DNA from: Paracamarosporium sp. OC-R06-R3
Taxonomy: Eukaryota; Ascomycota; Dothideomycetes; Pleosporales; Didymosphaeriaceae
Length of the DNA: 64,000 nt
NCBI GenBank assembly: GCA_019828545.1
Contig: JACVRA010000089.1
Span: 1 to 64,000 of the forward strand
Reading direction: 5' to 3'
A program made the position numbers and the translations under genes. Within the stretch, counting starts at the first letter, position 1, and each line of letters begins with the position of its first letter. This document shows, in pieces, positions 14,304-29,250 of this stretch. The notes below the pieces were generated by a model. The model searched no databases and was not told the origin of the DNA. It was given only the letters and a program-made list of their open reading frames with translations.

Positions 14304-15773
14304 CTAGACAAGAGCATCCAAGGATAGCTCGAAGCCGTGTTTCCATTTCTTCAAACGTTCAGCATATAAATCCTGCAAATCGTTTTTGTTGAAAAAAATT
14401 TTTGGGTTATGCGGCTTGGTATGAAGAACTGTAGGTGCTTCTTCAAACGCAGAAAGTGGCAAGCACGGAAAGCTATGCCGCTCCCCTTCGCATTCATACC
14501 ACCAATGCTCGACAAGGTTGGAATTATGGTCGAACGGTGAGGTGGCGGTCGTAGGTTGGGCTGCGTCTATATCGTACGTCTCCCAATTCCACAGCCCCTG
14601 GGCTGCATCGTACAAGAGCATACCCCACCGGTCGGCAGTATCTTCCAAAAACGAAGCGACAAAGGACACCCAGCCATTATGCTGGACATGGGTCAACCCA
14701 AGCTGTGAACCCACAACGGCTAGGAGTTTCATGCGAGTATTTTCTCCAAACTGCTCCGCAAAAAGGTACTCGTACTCATAAGGTAGTCGAGACACCATTT
14801 GGAGGATATCGAAAAGAATCTGATACACGGATTTATCACAATCGACAGGTATCTGAAATCTCTTTTCTATGAGTGCCATGAGGCCGTAGATCTTGTCCTT
14901 CGGATCGCTGCACTCGTTCCCACAATAAGGCACGATAATATTTCTGGGGTCGCGGATCGTAATATGCCTCCAGGCATTCCTAACCTTGCTAAGAGATGCT
15001 ATAAGCTCCAGTCCTCTTGGCTGAGGAGCAAATAACATCCTGACTATATCGAGCCATCGTTCGTTCTCCTCCAAGATGCCCCAGGGGATCCGCATACCAC
15101 CCTCCATCATGATCTGCACTTTCTTAGCTAGCAAGATTTCTTGAATGACCCACAAGCGACTGAAATATGTGTGGCAGATGATCCGCTCATAAATGTCGTA
15201 GAACCTGTTATCTGTGATGGGAATTTCATCATCAACATTCTCTCGTATGTCGCTGGACCAATTGCGTTCGTCGTGCAGCCATATGACTGTCATCAAAGCT
15301 CCTGAATAGATATCTCTCATCTGACCGACCTGATGGTTGCGCTCAGCAGTATCTGCCTGGTTGATGCAGAGCTGGTCGATCCAGAAGTAAATCGTCTTAT
15401 CTTCATCTCCGTCGTGCGCCTTTCCTTTAGCAGGGCTTGAACCAATGATGGAAAATCCACCTCGGCAAAACTCTTGACAGAACTTGAACAGGTTTCTCCC
15501 GATACTCAAAAAACCACTGTTGACAAGAATTTTTCGTGTCGGGGAGGCCGAGCCCCAGGTATACGATAGAGCGTAATATGCCGGAGCCGAATCAAGATCA
15601 AAGATCTCCACGTCACACCATGGCTGAGAGAAGTCTCCGTTTCTGAGTTTTCGAAATTTGAGAAGCCGCACCTGAGTCTTCGAAAGATCCAAGGACTCGT
15701 ACTGGTAGGGCTGTTTCTGATCTAGCATTGGTTTTGATGGAACCGTAGCCTCGCCCTCGGAAGCTGCATTCAT
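14304..15773 (-). CDS. HET-domain protein (heterokaryon incompatibility type)
   Basis: A single exon of 489 residues. HET-domain motifs are clear: YYALSYTWGS near residue 66-75, WIDQLCINQ near 132, a region with AERNHQVGQMRDIYSGA, and SRLWVIQEILLAKKV. A later GNECSDPKDKIYGLMALI is the usual closing motif of this class. HET-domain proteins trigger growth arrest or death after fusion of unlike hyphae, but many have unknown roles. No C-terminal amyloid-like motif is visible, unlike the second HET protein at 28204. It lies at the left end of the accessory island, with a dioxygenase gene upstream. Confidence 0.9.
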   Translation of the reverse strand: MNAASEGEATVPSKPMLDQKQPYQYESLDLSKTQVRLLKFRKLRNGDFSQPWCDVEIFDLDSAPAYYALSYTWGSASPTRKILVNSGFLSIGRNLFKFCQEFCRGGFSIIGSSPAKGKAHDGDEDKTIYFWIDQLCINQADTAERNHQVGQMRDIYSGALMTVIWLHDERNWSSDIRENVDDEIPITDNRFYDIYERIICHTYFSRLWVIQEILLAKKVQIMMEGGMRIPWGILEENERWLDIVRMLFAPQPRGLELIASLSKVRNAWRHITIRDPRNIIVPYCGNECSDPKDKIYGLMALIEKRFQIPVDCDKSVYQILFDILQMVSRLPYEYEYLFAEQFGENTRMKLLAVVGSQLGLTHVQHNGWVSFVASFLEDTADRWGMLLYDAAQGLWNWETYDIDAAQPTTATSPFDHNSNLVEHWWYECEGERHSFPCLPLSAFEEAPTVLHTKPHNPKIFFNKNDLQDLYAERLKKWKHGFELSLDALV

Positions 15774-16482
15774 CGTGAAAAGTCCAAAAAATGGAGCAAT
15801 GATGTGCGCGAGGAATCGATATGCGGGTGGCTAGGTCCCCAAAGAAATAGAACGGTGTATTGATCTTCTCAAGGAAGCGGCGGTGGTAGACGTTAAAAGA
15901 GCACTAAACACATCAATTATGAGGACTGTTTAAGACATACTACTGGATGTTCTAGGCTACATTGACTATCTTCTCTGCGTTGTCCATCAGCCTTCTCGTA
16001 AAGATTTGTGATGATGGAGGTTGTTAGAAAGCCAACGCATACATCTCGATCCTTGTCTCCTAATCCTTGTCTCCAGACCCAAGATTGGCGAGCTTGGCCT
16101 AAGTCCGAGACCGGTGTAACTGTGGCTTGCGCCCGACTGCTTGACCTCCAATGTTGTGTTGCATATTCCAAAAGCCATGAACACTCAATGGTTGCAGAAA
16201 CCCCCATGTGTAGACTATATAGGAGCTTATGTGTTGCTAGGGATTCTGATGAAGAAGGCAGAGCTCAGCGTGACTTCGTCCTGCACGTTAAAGGCCATTG
16301 AATGCTTTTAGCGAATGAGATCCTATATTTTCGGTAAAGTCCGGCTCATTTAAAAGGCTTCATTCGACGGTAATAAGTGAGAATGAGGTATCGTTGCTTC
16401 TATGAAGTATGATGCGTATGTACTTGATGAAACGGAACAAGTCGAAGATGCAAGTTCGTGAAATATGCAGCGATCGTGCACC
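15774..16482. other. Intergenic
   Basis: No gene supported. The part next to 15773 should be the promoter of the HET gene. A segment at about 16240-16370 resembles 25265-25390 (see repeat entries). Confidence 0.4.
16240..16370. repeat. Diverged repeat fragment, partner of 25265-25390
   Basis: Reads GACTTCGTCCTGCACG, then AAAGGCCATTGAATG, then CGAATGAGATCCTAT and CCGGCTCA. It lines up in order with similar blocks at 25265-25390 in the same orientation, at low identity with small gaps. Origin unknown; it may be an old duplicated or transposon fragment. Confidence 0.4.
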
Positions 16483-18388: not shown

Positions 18389-20030
18389 CTATCTAGAGCG
18401 TCTCATAGAATGGCCACTGACTCGATCGTGTATGCCTTCGATCCAAGACCGACGAAGGAACAAAGCAAGTATAGATACACATAACACAGGAATAGAGATA
18501 ATAAAGAAGATCCAGATGCTGAGGGATCCTGTACCGAACTGTGTAAAGTTCATGCCAAAGAAAGAAGTCATGAAAGAGAGCGGAATGTAAAAAGATGCGA
18601 CAATGGTGAATCGGAACAAAGTGTTGTTTTGTTCAATACCTCTCCTTGCTTCGCTGATGTTGGAGAGACTCATAGAAATGGACAATGAGCGATCAATCTT
18701 TGCCAATGCTTCATGCGCCCGCTTGAGGAGATACACCCAGTCTTCCTCGAGTGACTTTGCGTCCTGTTCAATTGTCAACGAGGGTTCGGTGCAATTCGAT
18801 CTTGATGAAAGACCGGCACCAAGTCTCTGGAAAACATTTAGTTTCTCTTGCAATCCTTCTATACAATGTTCAAGAAAATCTTGAAGATAGAGAAGCTCCG
18901 AATGAGCCGACGCGTAACCCAATTTTTTTGTTGTCTCATCTTTCTGGCTTAAGTGTTTCTTGATTTTCTCATCAACCAGATCCAGAATTTGTTGATCCGC
19001 AGACACAATCTTACGGAATAGGTCGTGAAGAAGGTATAACGGGTCCACAGAGCGCACAGTTTCATCCAAAGAAGATCCATAATCCCTGTGTACGGATGAT
19101 AGACTTTGGGCCCATTTTGTGCCAGCCGTCAGATTAGCGTGAGGTCGAGTAGTAAAGTCGCTATTCCAAACACTCCGTAGGAGCCTTTCATGCTCAGGTA
19201 CAGAGACTAATCTGGAAATATTGCTGTGGTTCGCTCGTCCGATCCAGGGACCTTGTGGACTAGAAGACAAATCGTCGCCACAGTCTAAATAAATCATGAC
19301 TGGGAGTTGCTCAGCGGTTGCAGGCTTCATTCAACTGATGTTCCTCACCTGTCCATCTCGAATCATCTGTCCCTTGGATATATACTGTTACATCTTGTTC
19401 AATACTAAAGTGTTCTTTATCGTGAAGGTAGTAGCGGCGCACAATTGAGTCCGCCTGATTCCAACCTCTTCCATCTGACAATGCTGCTCGATACGCAACC
19501 ATATTTCTCTCGGCTTCGTATCGCATGTTTTCGATAGTTTCGTTGGCTCCAAAAAATCTACTCCAGACTCCGACAGTCGCAACGCGGATTTTGAAGATGT
19601 GACTTGTGGCGGATGGTAGGGCACGATCCTGTGACAGATGTTGATTGGTTTGAGAGAAAAATCCAAGGTGACGCCTCCAGTACTCAGGATCCACTTGATA
19701 GGTGTGTCCTAAAAAGGCGAGCCATCTTGGTGAGGGATATCCTCTCAAGAAAATCAGTCTCCCAGCTCTTGCGACTGTGATTGATTCGTTTTCAAGACCT
19801 TGCAGCATCGCGGGGGACAGAACCGAGCGTGGGAGAATCTGCCAGCGAGGTGTCAAAGCACAGTACCACAAGAAGCATTCCTTAACGAGGTCGTGCACAT
19901 CCTGGTGCTGTACATGACTAGTTTCTCTTGCAAGGAACTCGGCGACTGGCGTGTACTGTGTGTATCGTTTCGCAAACTCTGTCACCCTATCCACATATTC
20001 TGAAGATGAACATGCAATTTGATGAGCCAT
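18389..20030 (-). CDS. CorA-like Mg2+ transporter family membrane protein
   Basis: Two exons, 20030-19349 and 19299-18389, joined over a 49-bp intron (GTGAGG to CCCAG), give 530 residues. The last 80 residues hold two hydrophobic segments: FTIVASFYIPLSFMTSFFG, which runs directly into the CorA signature GMN, then a second segment IWIFFIISIPVLCVSILALF. Upstream is a long helical region (roughly residues 300-440) as in the CorA stalk. The N-terminal 230 residues are soluble and I do not recognise them. Large fungal CorA-like proteins of this form are often found in accessory regions; ion transport has rarely been shown. It shares a 224-bp divergent promoter with the NLR gene. Confidence 0.85.
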
Positions 20031-20254
20031 AGATGTCTTATTAACAATGGGCGGGGTAACTTTGTGACGGCACTACATATGTAGTTACGCGATGGGCAGA
20101 AATTTGTCCTATCACCTGGGCGCTATGCAGCCAGGATGCTGCATGATGCAGTCAGCCCACTTTTTTGTGTTGGAATGCCCCGAATTGTTGCCCCACGACT
20201 CTCCAGCCGCGCGCGCTCATTTTCTTCACTCGCAGGTGCAGTTCCGCCCAAACC
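20031..20254. promoter_or_regulatory. Divergent promoter region, CorA-like gene / NLR gene
   Basis: Only 224 bp separate the predicted start codons of the two genes. The arrangement is seen directly; co-expression is inference. Confidence 0.4.
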
Positions 20255-23200
20255 ATGAGATTACCATCGCCTTTGCTAGGCGATGTTTACCATCGGCATT
20301 CAACGAATCCCAATTCTTTTGTGTATGCAATATTCTCAATATCTAGAGTTACCACTAAACTCCACACAGGCTCGTTTACGTTCCAAGCAACGATGATCCG
20401 AAGTCGAAGAAACCAGCGCACTGGGACACGATCATCCCACAACTATCACGACACATCCATAGAGTCCTTGAATACAACCGCGAAGCCTTGCATAAAGATC
20501 TTGCTGTCGTACTTGACATTGGAAAGTCTCTTTTGGAAGAGTTATTCTCGACTCATTTGAGTGATGAGACGGTAAAGCGTTAGCCTTATGGACTGGATGT
20601 TGCTGAGGTCTAGCCAGACATTATACGTGCCACATGTTATATTCATCTGTGAAGGAATCGGTGGACTCATCGTTAAAGAGGTTGGTAACACTATTGTGAG
20701 CTGTGTGCTTCATTGACTTCATGCAGGCTATTGCCTCTGCCCCAGAGGAATTACATAACTGGCAAGAAAGACTGAATCGGATCAAACGGATTGTCTTTAT
20801 CGCAACACCACATCCTGTAGAGCGACCAGGAATCAATAGCTTTATCGAATCCAGTTCGCCCTGGAACTCATGGCTCAAGCATAACGGAATCGCAGAACAG
20901 AGTACGCTAGCGTCCCAATTACAGCTTAGTGGATATTGTTTCGTCCAAACAATTGCCAAAGGGATGGCAGATTTGCGGATCCTTTCAGGATACGAGACTT
21001 CTGCTCCCAAAAAGAAAGTATTCACACGTTTAAAACAAAGAAACCGCCCGGAGGTAATGGTGCGTGTTCCTGACCTTCTAGTCATTTAGATCATGCCTGG
21101 ACTGTAGGCTGCGCTGTTGTTAACATCAAACAGCTTGTCAAAGGATCTCTGGCACAAATAGGACTACCGTGCGAACAGCTGGTCCCAGTTGAGCATGAAG
21201 TCACTCAGACGTTTAATTCTTCCCACAATTCTTCATTCCGAAGACAGATAGAGAGTTTTGTGAAAGATTATACAAATAGCACAGGGTCATCTATAGTAAG
21301 TAATCTCTGTTACATGATCTATTGCTGGTTTTTGGTCTGACATAAGGCCAGCAGGTCCCCGTACGGCCCATCATTATGACGCCTACCTCTACTGAGACGG
21401 GTTCCTCGTTGGACCCTGTACGCTTACCCACTCCAAGTTCGAGTTCAAGTAGGTCTATATGGCAATAGTTGATGATAGATCTAATGCGTATCAAGATTCT
21501 TCTGGTGGACCTGCAGTCATACCTCGCCAAGTACATCTACCGTTTCAGCATCCCAAATTCATGGAATTTGCTGAACCACAATATCATCAAAGTCGTCCAA
21601 AACTGATTACGATAATTGAAAAAGCTATCGTAGCCTCTGTCGCGCAATCTACTGAGAATCTCCTTGCCATTTTTGTCACCGGTCTTGGAGGGGTTGGGAA
21701 GACCGAACTTATCAAAGAGTTCGTTCGAAGAAATCGAACGCAATTTGATGCTATCATCTTTTTAGTGGCTGATGGGCGAGAAAGACTCCGCCAGCAATTT
21801 GCTGATGTAGCTGCTCGGATTGGCCTAATATCTCGAGGTCCGGATCAGAGTGTTGATGATGCAAAGGTGAAATTAAAAGAGTGGTTTGCAAACCCAACTA
21901 GGAACTTAGGTCACTGGGCTACCAAGCCTGAAAGATCTGCTAACAACGCAAAAGACGTAGTAAGATGGTTGCTCATACTTGACAATGTGGATGACATGGA
22001 CAATCTGAAGGAAGTTTGGCCTAGGGATGGATTTGGCTCAATCATCGTCACTAGTCGGGACCCTAATATTGGTTCACACTATGGAGAAAGCGTTCAAAGA
22101 ATTGCTATTGACGGCATGGATAAGGATGAAGCTATCTCACTGTTGAAGAAAGTGACCCAACTTCAGGCAAAGTCCTCGGAAGATGAACTCGCCTTGGCAA
22201 CCATTGTAGAACGCTTGGGTGGGTTGCCATTAGCCATCGAACAAATCGGGTCTATTATTGTTCACCGAAGTTTGTCCTTTCAAGGCTTCGTGAGCGTCTA
22301 TGCAAATGACGCAGACTATCATAGCCTTTACAATGAGCGACGCAACACAAAAGGATATGACCACAGTATTGGGTCAGTCTGGGCGTTCGAAACACTCGAA
22401 AGAGAAGACAAGCCGGCCGCTAGGTTACTCAACGCTCTATCCCTATTGGACTCAAATTGTATTCAAGAGAAATTGCTTGTTGAGAGTATGAGAGACGTCC
22501 ATACGGCTGATTACCCCAACAATTTTCAAGAGTACCTCAAGATATTATCACGCCTGAACGAATGTTCATTGGTTAGGCGAGACCGTGATAGCGGATCAAT
22601 AACCTTACATCGCCTTGTACAAGATGTTTCTCGAGCTAGAACATCCAATAATATGAATGAATTCATGGAAATTTTCATGCTCATAACTACGGCGGTCCGA
22701 AGGTGCTGGGCTGGCAGAAGTGACAAGCTGAACGAGCATGGCCTTGTTCAAAGATGGAAACGATGTCGAGATATGTATCCGCACATTGTCAAGATGCAAC
22801 TAGTAACAAACGAGATGCTCTCGTTGAACAAGAGGTGGGTCGTGTCGCCAGAGTACGTGGATTTACTTTATGAAGCAGCCTGGTAAGATATTAAATCGCT
22901 TTAGTGACACTTGATCACTAACACTTCCATAGGTATCAATGTGAAAAGGGAGAGGTTGCTGAAGCACAGCCTCTTGTTGGCTTAGGGTTGGCTCTTTGCG
23001 ACATGTACGTGGAGCAGACCGGACTTGACGAGATTCCCGACCTTCTTGACAGGTCCAGAAGTGGATTATGGGCATGCAGACTAGTCATGAATCAGATGTT
23101 GGGGAATTATAAACTGGTTTGGCATTACAGCAAACTACGTTTCGCAGCGTCAGAGGCGTTGTACAAGAAAACAGGTAAAAGAATTGGCTTCGATACAGCG

Positions 23201-23941
23201 ACGCATAACACACTTGGGATATCCTACGCTATGAACCACCTCTTCGAAGAAGCGATAGATGTTTTGAAAAAGTCCGTTGAGCTACGCATGGAGATGTCTG
23301 GATTCAAGAAAGATTGGCTGTTCTCTCCCTTTTATCACCTAGGGATTACATATCACTGCATGGGTCAATTCGAAATGTCTGCGCAGATCCTACAAGAAGC
23401 TATCGCCGATCGTATAGCGGCTCTAGGACCCAACGATCGTATATCAGCAAGGAGTGGTGCTTTGTTCTACGTTCTTGGAAACGTGCGACAGTCGCAAGGG
23501 CTTTTCGATGAGGCATTCGCTTTGCATCAGCGTGCGCATATACAATGCAAGCAAACTGCTGGTGAGTGTGCACTTGCAACGCTACGGGTTGCACAGAAAC
23601 TTGCAGAGCATTACGAACGATATGGATCCGAGTCGGAAGCCTGGTATGTTCAAACTCAATTCCAAAAGGCATTGTTCTAATGGTGATATAGCCAAATACT
23701 CCAAAACATTCTCGAGGTCTGCGACGGTAGGGTGGACCGAAAGCTAGAGATACTTCAGGCTACCTTCGTCCTGTCGCGAATTTATCAAAGTCAAGGAAAC
23801 CTACCGGAGTATCGCATATTGCGGGAACAAGCTGTAGACTTGTTCAATGATCTGAAAGTCAGCGAGAAAAGGTCTTGTGACTCTCTGACTTGGAGCGACA
23901 TCCGTAGTGCCTTGCATTATGACTTCCTCTACGTTGGTTAA
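20255..23941 (+). CDS. Fungal NLR: hydrolase-like N-terminus, NB-ARC, TPR-like repeats
   Basis: About nine exons: 20255-20322, 20370-20571, 20618-20680, 20727-~21027 or 21053, ~21090-21295, ~21355-21448, 21517-22882, 22933-23643 and 23692-23941, giving about 1090 residues. All joins keep phase except exon 4 to 5, which needs an atypical donor (GTTTAA near 21028) or another model. The N-terminus resembles the SesB-type alpha/beta hydrolase of fungal NLRs: SFVLVYVPSND, then IFICEGIGGLIVKEA, then KRIVFIATPHP. The nucleophile elbow, normally G-H-S-x-G-G, reads C-E-G-I-G-G. NB-ARC follows, with P-loop VTGLGGVGKTEL, Walker B WLLILDNVDD and GLPLAIEQIG. The C-terminal 320 residues are helical repeats of TPR type (NTLGISYAMNHLFEEAIDVL, FYVLGNVRQSQGLFDEA). 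Such proteins act as sensors in incompatibility and innate immunity. Confidence 0.85.
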
Positions 23942-25547: not shown

Positions 25548-26620
25548 TCATTTTGCTGGAGGGGCTGGAAAGTTGTTGGTTTGTTGAGATGAATCATTGA
25601 AGTGACTCCCCTGTACAGTGTTCGTGCCACTGTTATGGTTTATAATGTTTCTCCCAGACTTCTGCTCATCCGTTAATTTCGATTGAGCGTCACTGCTGTT
25701 GCGACCATGGCTAGAATCAGAAGTCTTGTGGTCATTCGTGCTTCGCGGATCGTTGTTTGATTGGGAGGAGGAAAGCTGGTGTCCTTGGTTCTAATAGAGA
25801 TTAGAGGTGCAATTTCTTAAGTTTTGGGTTTCTAACATCTCTGGCATTTTGAGTCCTCCTTCCCCCCATGTTCCAAGAACTACCTCCGCCGGTTCCACCT
25901 TGAAGTGTAACGGTGCCTGTAGAGCTCATCTTGTTGGTGAAGCTTCGAAGAACAAGTCGTCTTGCTTTGGAAGGAGTGGGAGAAAGGAACACGTCAGTTG
26001 ACCTTAAGTCCCGGACATAACTTACCGGAAAGGTATCCACTTTTTGTACAGCGGATACGGAAGTTCCCACCAGCCTGGCCTCTTCTGATGCACGCGAGTA
26101 TGTGGCACAACGCGCACGGCCCACCATGCCAAGAACCCTATCTTGAATGCCAACAGCGTCAAGACTCAATACCAAGCTTTCTTCTGCATGCAGAGCTTCT
26201 GTATAAACATACAGCCTTATGCGATCAAGACAAAGTCAGACCCATCAAAGAACCTCCCGGAATGGAGTTTCTATCGTGTCCGATGTGATAGAGGTTGTGA
26301 GCTCGGGCTATATCTGCCACTACATAGGAGCGCTAGAGGGCCCTCCAATAGGCATTGGTAGTCGGTGTCTCGGGTCTTGTCGTAGGCTCAACACATCGTT
26401 CAGTGGTGAGAGTGCTTTGCGCTTGTCTCAATACGCTTTTAGAGATGATGCACAACTCTGAAAGCAGCTTAATACTCCCTATGCCAAGGCTTCGATAAAC
26501 CAGACCTACCCCGCCCTCATGCATGTGACACAGCTCGTCAACAGCAGAGAGACACTTTGGGACTGCTCCATCCAATATGATCACACTCTTCGACATGGTA
26601 CTTGCCCTCTTCGTGAGCAT
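25548..26620 (-). CDS. Candidate small effector with C-terminal amyloid-like motif
   Basis: The last exon is well supported: 25790-25548, following a TATTAG acceptor, encodes 80 residues rich in Asn, Ser, Gln and Asp. It ends in a 25-residue motif (25640-25566; GTNTVQGSHFND, then QQTNNFP) matching the C-terminus of the HET protein at 28204. Upstream exons are tentative. A frame at 26175-25801 has helical, coding-like sequence (EALHAEESLVLSLDAVG) and then a Gly-rich stretch (LQGGTGGGSSWNMGGRR), which joins the last exon in phase if the donor is GTTAGA near 25838. A frame at 26620-26333 (VPKCLSAVDELCHMHEGG) could be the start. Short helical domain, Gly-rich linker and C-terminal motif would suit a HeLo/HELL- or Fungal_N-type protein, but I cannot assign a family. 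Confidence 0.5.
25566..25640 (-). other. Amyloid-like motif, small-protein copy
   Basis: Encodes 25 residues starting N-H-N-S-G and ending N-N-F-P, six residues before the stop. Thirteen positions are identical by eye with residues 314-338 of the HET protein, without gaps. The conserved positions are N, N, G, N, V, G-S, F, D, Q, N, F-P. Confidence 0.7.
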
Positions 26621-28203
26621 GGCTCATAACAAACGTGTTTCATATTAAGTAGTCTTCTATTGTTCCCAATTGATCTCAGGCGACGATGACAATCAAGGAA
26701 GAAAGCTGCCTTCGTATAACTTCGTCATTGAAGTACCTGCTTGGCTGTTGTCTGCGTTACCTAATCAAACCACTGATCGTACTAGTTTATCCTCTTTGAG
26801 GATCTTTGCAATCGCGGGCTCTTTACCGGTATGAACACTATATCTCGAGCCTGTGTGTTCCTAGATCTGTTATCCCCAACCATTACGACTTCCTACTTCC
26901 CATCTAGCATACCAGATAAAGACGTTTGATTTGGTTCTATGACGATCATAGTCATTTTCACCTGCTTGGACTACGTATATTAGATGCCTACAAGGCCGCC
27001 CAAGCCTTCGCCTACGATTCAACCTAAGAAAAGAAATTCGGTTTCCTATGCAAGCCTCGTATGGAAGGCCTAAAAGAGGGAGACTCAACGATGGGCTTTT
27101 ATCGTTAGTTCCAGCGGCAAGGCTACGCAACTAATCCGCAAGCGGTTACTACCAAACACAACACCGCCCACTTGTGAATCGTCTCCCACGGTGATCAAGA
27201 GGCATCCAACTATTGTGTGACAGATCAAACTAGTATAGGTAATCAGTTCCCAACACATCATCCAGTGACGTTAGTGGTTTCGCAAAACGGATATCAAAAC
27301 CATGAAGTCCATGTTTTGACTTCGTGAAAGAGAGGTGATACGACACGGTGTGACCGAAAAATGGCCTAATGTTGGAAGGTAAGGGCCGGCGGGAGCCTAG
27401 CGGTGACGACTCCGAGTCGAGAGCGCCTAGTGGAGACGTAGACCGGCCATGTTCGACGGGTCTCTCTGCTTGCAAACCCAACAGACCATAACGTTGATTC
27501 GACACAGCTATGAAACATACACGGTGAGGTAGGCAGGGGTGTGTAGGCACACAATATGTCAGTCAGCAAGCCTCATGACTATGTAGATTTTTAAAGATGG
27601 ATATGTATATCTTCACCGACAGTTCGGTCCTTGCGTTGTGGCTGTTGACTCTTGACGAAGGACCTCGTTTTTACTTACTATTCAGCCTGGGTGGCCTTAG
27701 CGCTGTGCCCGAATGGTCAATCGAGCTCCTTCGTATTCGTATCGATCTTTAGATACTGGTCCTCCAATGAACTTACTGTTGACCCGGGGGGGATCATACG
27801 GGTATCGAACGAATCATCGAGGGCGACAAACAAGGTGACCCTTGCAAGACTGGCTTAAGTAATGCAACTCCTGGGCACAAAGAGCACAATTTTTACCGCC
27901 CATTTCTTTTCCTACCAAACGCGAAACTTTGATTGGCTGAATGGAGGGGTTTCTGGCACGTGACCGGCGTACTACAGCCTTGCTGCATTCCGGTGGCCGC
28001 TCAGTCAATGAGTGGCTGTAGGAACTAGGCTGATCAAGGCTGAGTCCTGCGGCTGTTACCATCCTGGATATAACCTTTCCTCGCTGCTCTTACGTCCTCA
28101 AAGCCTTGTCTATGCGATTCATCCTTTCAAGCTCTTATCGTCCAATCGCGCACGCCCCTCTCTAATTGGATCATCTTATCTCCGGAGCCTGTTGGCTATT
28201 CCC
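26621..28203. other. Intergenic between the small protein and the HET protein
   Basis: No gene supported in 1.6 kb. Minus frames at 26870-27130 and 27230-27550 are open by chance or are remnants; they have no family features. Because the flanking genes point away from each other, both 5' regions lie here. Confidence 0.4.
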
Positions 28204-29250
28204 ATGCGTTTACTACAGTATCAAGGGGATGATGTATTCAGCCTTGTGGAATACCCGAACAACCAAACTCCCCCATACGCAATTCTTTCGCACACTTGGG
28301 CTGAAGAAGATTGCAACGAAGTCACTTTTCAAGACATCGTGACGGGGACGGGCAAGACCAAACCAGGATACCAGAAACTTATCTTCTGCGTAACCCAAGC
28401 AGCAAAAGACGACTTACGACACATCTGGGTGGACACGTGCTGTATCGACAAGTCAAACCATGCGGAGGTTTCAGAAGCTATTAACTGCATGTTTCGCTGG
28501 TACCAGAATGCAGCGAAATGCTACGTATATCTGTCTGATGTTTCTTTCGGCGAGTCCATGGGGCAGGAGAGATTGTCTGGGGAACTAAGTCCGGTGTTCA
28601 GAGACAGCAAGTGGTTCAAACGTGGCTGGACACTGCAAGAGCTTATCGCTCCTGAATCAGTCAGCTTCTTTTCTGTCGAAGGCAAGCATCTTGGCAATAA
28701 GCAATCACTAGAACATATGCTCGTCGAGATAACTGGCATACCTCTGAAAGTTCTACAAGGAAGTCCACTATCTCAGTACACAGTCAAAGAAAGAGTCTCG
28801 TGGGTACGAAAAAGGAAAACAAGAATAGACGAAGACATAATATACTGTCTGCTTGGTTTGCTAGATGTACAAATGCCGCTCATATACGGCGAAGGACGAC
28901 AAAAAGCACAGCTTCGTTTGGGGAAGGAGATACAGGAAAGCAATCTACTCAATCCATGGAAGTACGGCAAACCATGTCTATCAAGCCTCTCCACAGACAC
29001 ACCTCGGTATACGATGGTACCTAAGGACGGTAGTCAAGACCGCGCCACCAAGTCTGACAGCGGAGTTGGCGCGGAGGAATCCGAGTCAGATAAGTCAAGC
29101 AAGCCAAAGAAGAAGACGAAGAGGGACAGTGACGTTTTGAATAATTTCAATTATGGGCACAATGCTGTCATGGGAAGTATCTTCAGAGACCATGCGTCAC
29201 AAAACAACACATTTCCATCTCAGTCTCCGTCATCATCGGTGGGCTTGTGA
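28204..29250 (+). CDS. HET-domain protein with C-terminal amyloid-like motif
   Basis: A single exon of 348 residues from the ATG at 28204, whose product begins MRLLQYQ as HET proteins of the HET-E/NWD class often do. The frame is open further upstream, but that part does not look conserved. HET motifs are PYAILSHTWAEEDCNEVTF (residues 24-42), IWVDTCCIDKSNHAEVSEAI (74-93), an internal CYVYLSDV, and GWTLQELIAPESVSFFS. A charged, Lys/Ser-rich linker (KSSKPKKKTKRDSD) leads to the C-terminal motif at 314-338 (GHNAVMGSIFRD). The HET domain is the executor in several incompatibility systems. A motif placed after a flexible linker at the extreme C-terminus suggests activation by an amyloid template. 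That is inference. Confidence 0.9.
   Translation: MRLLQYQGDDVFSLVEYPNNQTPPYAILSHTWAEEDCNEVTFQDIVTGTGKTKPGYQKLIFCVTQAAKDDLRHIWVDTCCIDKSNHAEVSEAINCMFRWYQNAAKCYVYLSDVSFGESMGQERLSGELSPVFRDSKWFKRGWTLQELIAPESVSFFSVEGKHLGNKQSLEHMLVEITGIPLKVLQGSPLSQYTVKERVSWVRKRKTRIDEDIIYCLLGLLDVQMPLIYGEGRQKAQLRLGKEIQESNLLNPWKYGKPCLSSLSTDTPRYTMVPKDGSQDRATKSDSGVGAEESESDKSSKPKKKTKRDSDVLNNFNYGHNAVMGSIFRDHASQNNTFPSQSPSSSVGL
29143..29217 (+). other. Amyloid-like motif, HET-protein copy
   Basis: Encodes residues 314-338 of the HET protein. It aligns without gaps to the small protein's motif at 25566-25640. The DNA of the two copies is diverged, so the match is at protein level. Confidence 0.7.

Follow-up and report, generated by a model that had tools for sequence, protein, structure and literature searches.

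Two neighbouring genes of Paracamarosporium sp. OC-R06-R3 encode proteins that end in the same short motif, and we think with moderate confidence that this motif is homotypic, most likely of the kind used in fungal amyloid signalling, and joins the two proteins in one assembly. The genes lie within the first 64,000 nt of contig JACVRA010000089.1 (hereafter the window; C330:1-64000 in the 43.09-Mb assembly of 337 contigs, which was searched in six frames) and encode a protein with a HET domain (PF06985) on the plus strand and a small protein on the minus strand. The motif stands on a predicted-disordered tail behind the folded HET domain, its residues have been kept despite drift of the codons, and the same gene design recurs with other motifs at other loci of the genome.

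A motif common to the tails of two divergent genes

The tail of the HET protein and the last exon of the small gene have in common a stretch of 25 residues that aligns without gaps, with 13 of the 25 residues identical and the core G-x-N-x-V-x-G-S-x-F-x-D...Q-x-N-x-F-P present in both copies. The copy in the HET protein (29143 to 29217, plus strand) stops 10 residues short of the stop codon; that in the small protein (25566 to 25640, minus strand), also recovered by a motif scan of the window, stops 5 residues short of the stop of an 80-residue open reading frame (ORF) at 25790-25548. The local alignment score is 70, as compared with a mean of 28.1 (standard deviation 5.5) after shuffling; it was reached neither in 20,000 shuffles that preserved composition nor in 5,000 block shuffles (top score 69), and the 13 identities compare with at most 11 in 2,000 shuffles. 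The gap-free motif with its identities and core, which a first-pass annotation of this DNA had proposed from the letters alone, was thus borne out by alignment and shuffling, and so was the head-to-head orientation of the two genes that it had described.

The two copies use the same codon at 6 of the 13 shared residues when 5.4 are expected from codon usage alone, and the best local DNA alignment of the two tails covers about 66 columns limited to the motif (score 23; the highest of 200 shuffles scored 21). Because the codons have drifted and the likeness in DNA is limited to the motif, we consider the motif to have been conserved as protein sequence, or else acquired, and not recently copied. 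Both tails are polar and of low complexity.

The HET protein and the small gene

The HET protein is encoded by a single exon of 348 codons (28204 to 29250, plus strand) and matches PF06985 with E 1.7e-12 (48.3 bits versus a cut-off of 22.5), the best-scoring stretch covering residues 25-113 (28276 to 28542). In an AlphaFold prediction made from an alignment of 46 sequences, residues 1 to about 250 are folded, with block means of the predicted local distance difference test (pLDDT) of 62-93, and residues 255-348 have pLDDT below 50; this latter part includes the polar and basic linker between domain and motif (28954 to 29142), predicted to be disordered, and the motif itself. Because Foldseek with this model gave no PDB match at E ≤ 0.001, the link of the HET domain to TIR domains is taken here from published papers. 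A TIR-like fold of the model was not adopted from that search, the top rows of which were zeta-toxin chains (E 0.03-0.06, template modelling score 0.17-0.22).

The last exon of the small gene (25548 to 25790, minus strand; 80 codons and a stop) was recognised by its open frame, its coding score and its match to the HET tail, and it reads as a polar Ser/Asn/Asp linker followed by the motif. Under a codon model trained on the window's own long ORFs, with the nearby NOD-like receptor (NLR) gene included and the HET gene left out, it scores 0.129 bits per codon, which is similar to the values of the HET gene and the NLR (approximately 0.10 each) and higher than 50 of 51 non-coding ORFs that were drawn from the same stretches as part of the background of the model. 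The exon is preceded by the acceptor TATTAG with a CTAAT branch-like site. A splice search, whose weights were set from general knowledge, gave four models of 105-125 residues, all with a start at 26127 and two of them beginning the last exon at 25775 instead; possible upstream exons lie between 25791 and 26620 (minus strand; ORFs 26620-26336 and 26235-26026). In the readings of 25.5-26.6 kb that were tried no Pfam family was found, and SesA (PF17107) gave no match in these readings, although the gene may be spliced there in any of the four ways; the same profile does detect SesA at another locus, on contig C306. Joined into one query, those pieces of the small gene that could be read yielded 2304 candidates, none at E ≤ 10, and exon 1 of the gene has a weak genome match to C38 (E 0.137). 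Of the small gene as first annotated, therefore, the last exon stands as coding, but the upstream structure was not confirmed, and the N-terminal part of the gene may be decaying. The small protein could be a co-effector, an adaptor or an inhibitor; that it is a second executor, as first suggested, is a guess.

The same gene design in related HET loci

The genome contains at least 151 HET-domain matches. Among the closest HET paralogs, of which 59 matches were listed and 30 were given with their loci (the window HET gene and 29 paralogs), we took a tail of 25-220 residues as testable and compared it whole, linkers included, with the neighbouring frames. Nine of the 30 loci qualified; the other 21 were left out as truncated, broken, too short, or fused to an NLR or another long frame. 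The flank compared was wider at the window (6.2 kb in total) than at the other loci (approximately 1.5 kb on each side). In three of the nine testable loci, the tail was common to a neighbouring ORF, namely at the window (score 93; maximum of 200 tail shuffles 55), at C241 (95; 44) and at C306 (152; 53), and the remaining six HET tails were within the range of their 200 tail shuffles. The HET regions of the paralogs on C306, C114 and C241 are 56-60% identical to that of the window, with 58% over residues 1-251 for C306 and 60% over residues 1-246 for C241.

At C306:552655-556243, the HET tail is the sigma motif (PF17106, E 6.4e-10), and the neighbour, arranged tail-to-tail with the HET gene, combines SesA (E 2.5e-29) with a further sigma motif (PF17106, E 1.3e-11); on these profile matches, this is an authentic sigma locus. 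It resembles the window in having a HET protein of the same subfamily whose C-terminal motif is common to a small neighbour, and differs in the motif itself, in the orientation of the genes and in having a third sigma copy before a vWA-like ORF. This third copy lies in a frame that immediately precedes a weak vWA-TerF-like frame (E 4.7e-4, short of the cut-off), and the two could form a non-NLR receptor for the sigma system. At C114:13700-14871, a sigma frame (PF17106, E 1.9e-7) follows the HET frame and is probably the second exon of the HET gene.

At C241:198706-201102, the C-terminal motif of the HET protein, GPIxGRxVxPG...NFxFG, is found again where a head-to-head NB-ARC gene begins, approximately 175 nt before the NB-ARC region (NB-ARC E 0.0073 and DUF7779 E 8.9e-5, both below the curated cut-offs). 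Here too the genes are head-to-head and the HET C-terminal motif is common to the neighbour; the two loci differ in that the neighbour's copy opens an NB-ARC gene at C241 and is C-terminal on a small protein in the window. Judging from sequence, this GPIxGRxVxPG-type (GPI-type) motif is a candidate signalling motif that is apparently undescribed. Further copies were found on C81, C99, C112, C256 and C85 with E from 1.3e-9 to 3.4e-3 (loci L066, L068, L069, L072-L075, L077 and L078). On C81, one copy begins a frame preceding an NB-ARC frame, and a second, with an internal stop and on the opposite strand, is in a frame with no recognised HET domain; on C99, a HET-like start opposite the copy was seen by eye.

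A database search with the full HET protein scored 8000 candidates, all at E ≤ 0.001. Among the 120 HET relatives listed, none had a tail like that of the window (best tail score 34), and four had a tail of another kind: the HET protein P0088 has PF17106 precomputed on its tail and may itself be part of a longer protein, and the tails of P0046, P0065 and P0097 are GPI-type by eye. Because paralogs and relatives have sigma and GPI-type tails, we regard the C-terminus of this HET subfamily as a site for signalling motifs, which the window motif occupies; and because related HET genes share other tail motifs with their neighbours, the window pair is probably another version of a self-assembling death switch.

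Relation to known motifs and systems

The view that the motif is unlike the known fungal motifs was upheld with the Pfam models. For sigma (PF17106), no match at E ≤ 10 was obtained in the window, which is not among the 10 genome matches of that model, and the same is true of the PP motif (PF17046, named Ses_B), with 4 genome matches. When compared with three local sigma copies, the score of the HET copy was reached by 46-96% of shuffles and that of the small-protein copy by 2-21%; the HET copy was unremarkable against all six local sigma, PP and GPI peptides, and for the small-protein copy two of the sigma references gave marginal scores, which 2-5% of shuffles attained. The PP pairwise score was at the level of shuffles, and the window motif and the C241 motif showed no similarity above shuffles.

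Two features of the amyloid-signalling class are present in the window: the same short motif occurs in adjacent genes, and it is C-terminal to a known NLR effector domain, HET, which according to passages of a 2022 survey was one of the 19 effector profiles from which that survey started (PMC9815663). A third feature, a matching N-terminal copy on an NLR of the same cluster, was found neither in the NLR at 20.2-23.7 kb nor elsewhere in the window. Passages of that survey name HeLo, HeLo-like and PNP_UDP associations, with pore-forming and PNP_UDP domains as effectors (PMC9815663), and a targeted search of 2012, as excerpted, came up with no HET protein that pairs in trans with an NLR (PMC3321046). 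Among the titles and abstract openings listed from the open-licence literature, none reports that HET proteins use amyloid motifs in trans, nor do the passages of PMC10197012 and PMC12258605.

The sigma locus of Nectria haematococca, described in excerpts of PMC3321046 and PMC5485727 as consisting of SESA, SESB and HET-eN, resembles the window pair in having two unlike clustered effectors with a common C-terminal motif of Gly, Asn, Gln and aromatic residues; the sigma motif is given there as 25-27 or approximately 40 residues long, depending on the paper. Unlike that locus, the window has a motif that is non-sigma by Pfam, a HET protein in place of the SESB lipase, no receptor-side copy that we could find and a small protein with no SesA match in the readings tried. 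In the GDQN pair of Fusarium oxysporum, as far as the excerpt of PMC12261475 goes, neighbours likewise share a motif and one has a SesA domain; its pattern differs by eye from that of the window, and the partner is a probable NLR.

The genome contains other motif clusters. A PP-motif locus at C327:398355-399780 (PF17046, E 1.6e-6) has a HeLo-like protein and an NB-ARC/TPR-like frame by eye, and C131:8770-10600 and C89:177694-180560 are two more sigma-motif clusters.

Search for a receptor and for further copies

The NLR of the window (21453 to 23680, plus strand) was recognised by Pfam matches to NB-ARC and DUF7779 (21453-22886) and to TPR (22922-23680). Its N-terminal region (20.2-21.4 kb, plus strand) is SesB-like by eye only, the stretch at 20640-21400 having the look of a SesB-type hydrolase with the usual catalytic-serine motif altered; the N-terminal pieces matched no Pfam family, and the SesB-like reading was not confirmed. 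Another HET-like protein, seen by eye at 14304-15830 (minus strand), has no motif in the window scan.

The following results weigh against the amyloid-signalling reading of the pair. The six-frame position-weight scan of the window found the two copies, no third and none on the NLR or another receptor; the next-best score was 25.0, and the best scores in ten shuffled windows were 20.5-31.0. In the NLR 5' region (19900-21500) there is no copy, the best score being 13.0, as compared with 115.5-116 for the true copies under a slightly different matrix. Genome searches with the two tails gave no receptor-borne copy, though remoter copies could escape them, and genome queries with the bare motifs (26 and 36 residues) retrieved only themselves and missed the partner. 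No database protein of 191-609 residues was found with the tail (one exact-word candidate, none at E ≤ 10), neither motif piece matches any Pfam family at E ≤ 10, HRAM included, in a search whose HMMER filters drop weak matches, the two upstream ORFs of the small gene score approximately zero or below in the codon model, and the top of the 20,000 shuffles was 69, close to the observed 70.

What these searches can tell was judged from the whole tails and from a control. The small-gene tail (80 residues) had the HET tail as its sole non-self match in the genome at E ≤ 10 (E 0.016), and the HET tail (85 residues) had the small tail as its best non-self match (E 0.025); one further, weaker match of the latter on C58 (E 0.34), in a protein that is zinc-cluster-like by eye, was dismissed as chance after the locus had been inspected by eye. 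Because the bare motifs missed the partner, these E-values owe something to the linkers, and because even the known partner was missed, we give the bare-motif queries no weight on absence. The control, a sigma tail from a different HET gene, retrieved its two cluster mates in the genome and missed the profile-detected sigma copies on C131, C89 and C114. On this basis, a receptor copy as similar as a cluster mate should be detectable and a remoter one could escape; since the control reached cluster mates only, absence elsewhere is weak evidence either way.

Because no receptor-side copy, one of the defining features of the class, was found, the pair is filed as working like an amyloid-signalling system, not as a proven member. 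The first-pass annotation had proposed a C-terminal motif system, and the design indeed recurs with sigma at C306 and with the GPI-type motif and NB-ARC at C241, but no receptor copy was found in the window. A wider motif family, also proposed, gained no further member in the genome or in the exact-word database search of proteins of 191-609 residues, where distant copies could escape. The earlier interpretation is, on the whole, partly supported, and the paralog comparison has strengthened it.

Competing explanations

The missing third copy, both in the window and in the genome searches, would also be expected if the pair were the relic of a former receptor/effector cluster, one that has lost its receptor copy and in which the small gene is in decay and the motif no longer signals; the non-coding scores of the upstream ORFs and an N-terminal domain that is not recognised point the same way. 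We regard this history as unlikely, since the open frames of both motif copies are intact and resemble coding sequence in their codon use, the residues that stayed identical despite codon drift suggest constraint on both until recently, and the HET domain is intact. A predicted-disordered tail with a single short conserved block, a prediction that covers the HET protein, is also what a short linear docking motif would look like, with both tails binding a common third protein, or each other by beta pairing, in a non-amyloid manner, and the weak likeness to the local sigma, PP and GPI reference peptides agrees with this. The same position in close HET paralogs, however, holds sigma, a recognised fungal amyloid-signalling motif, and a docking motif appears rather improbable to us.

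A recently duplicated 3' end of the HET gene, or a chance likeness between Asn/Ser-rich tails, would draw on the polar low-complexity character of both tails, on the narrow distance between the top shuffle and the observed score, on the DNA likeness over the motif and on the failure of the bare-motif queries to find the partner. We hold it to be very improbable, because no composition-preserving shuffle reached the score, codon identity at the shared residues is that expected from codon usage, and six other HET tails showed nothing in the same test.

Proposed mechanism and significance

Under the amyloid-signalling explanation, which we prefer, an upstream trigger would nucleate the motif, and the HET protein would then join the growing assembly through templating of its own motif. 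By analogy with the published model, excerpts of which describe an activated receptor templating the amyloid fold onto effectors (PMC9815663; PMC12881547), the assembly would gather HET domains and small proteins, and crowding of the HET domains may turn on the cell-death activity known for this domain, whose overexpression is described in a passage of PMC12881547 as sufficient for cell death induction. The amyloid fold, the templating and the death output are thus proposed here from analogy with that model.

More tentatively, and with rather less than even confidence, we suggest that HET (TIR-like) domains may be general trans-acting executors of fungal amyloid signalling and that this one genome may have at least three insulated channels into closely related HET proteins: sigma (C306 and C114), the apparently undescribed GPIxGRxVxPG motif with NB-ARC (C241), and the private motif of the window, which would link HET to a small protein and is possibly triggered by a non-NLR. 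The HET domain underlies many genes for incompatibility and cell death in fungi. Should interchangeable tail motifs be able to switch on HET proteins, a TIR-like executor would be driven by amyloid signalling besides the pore-formers, and the private motif of the window would offer a small, testable pair for studying the insulation between parallel death channels.

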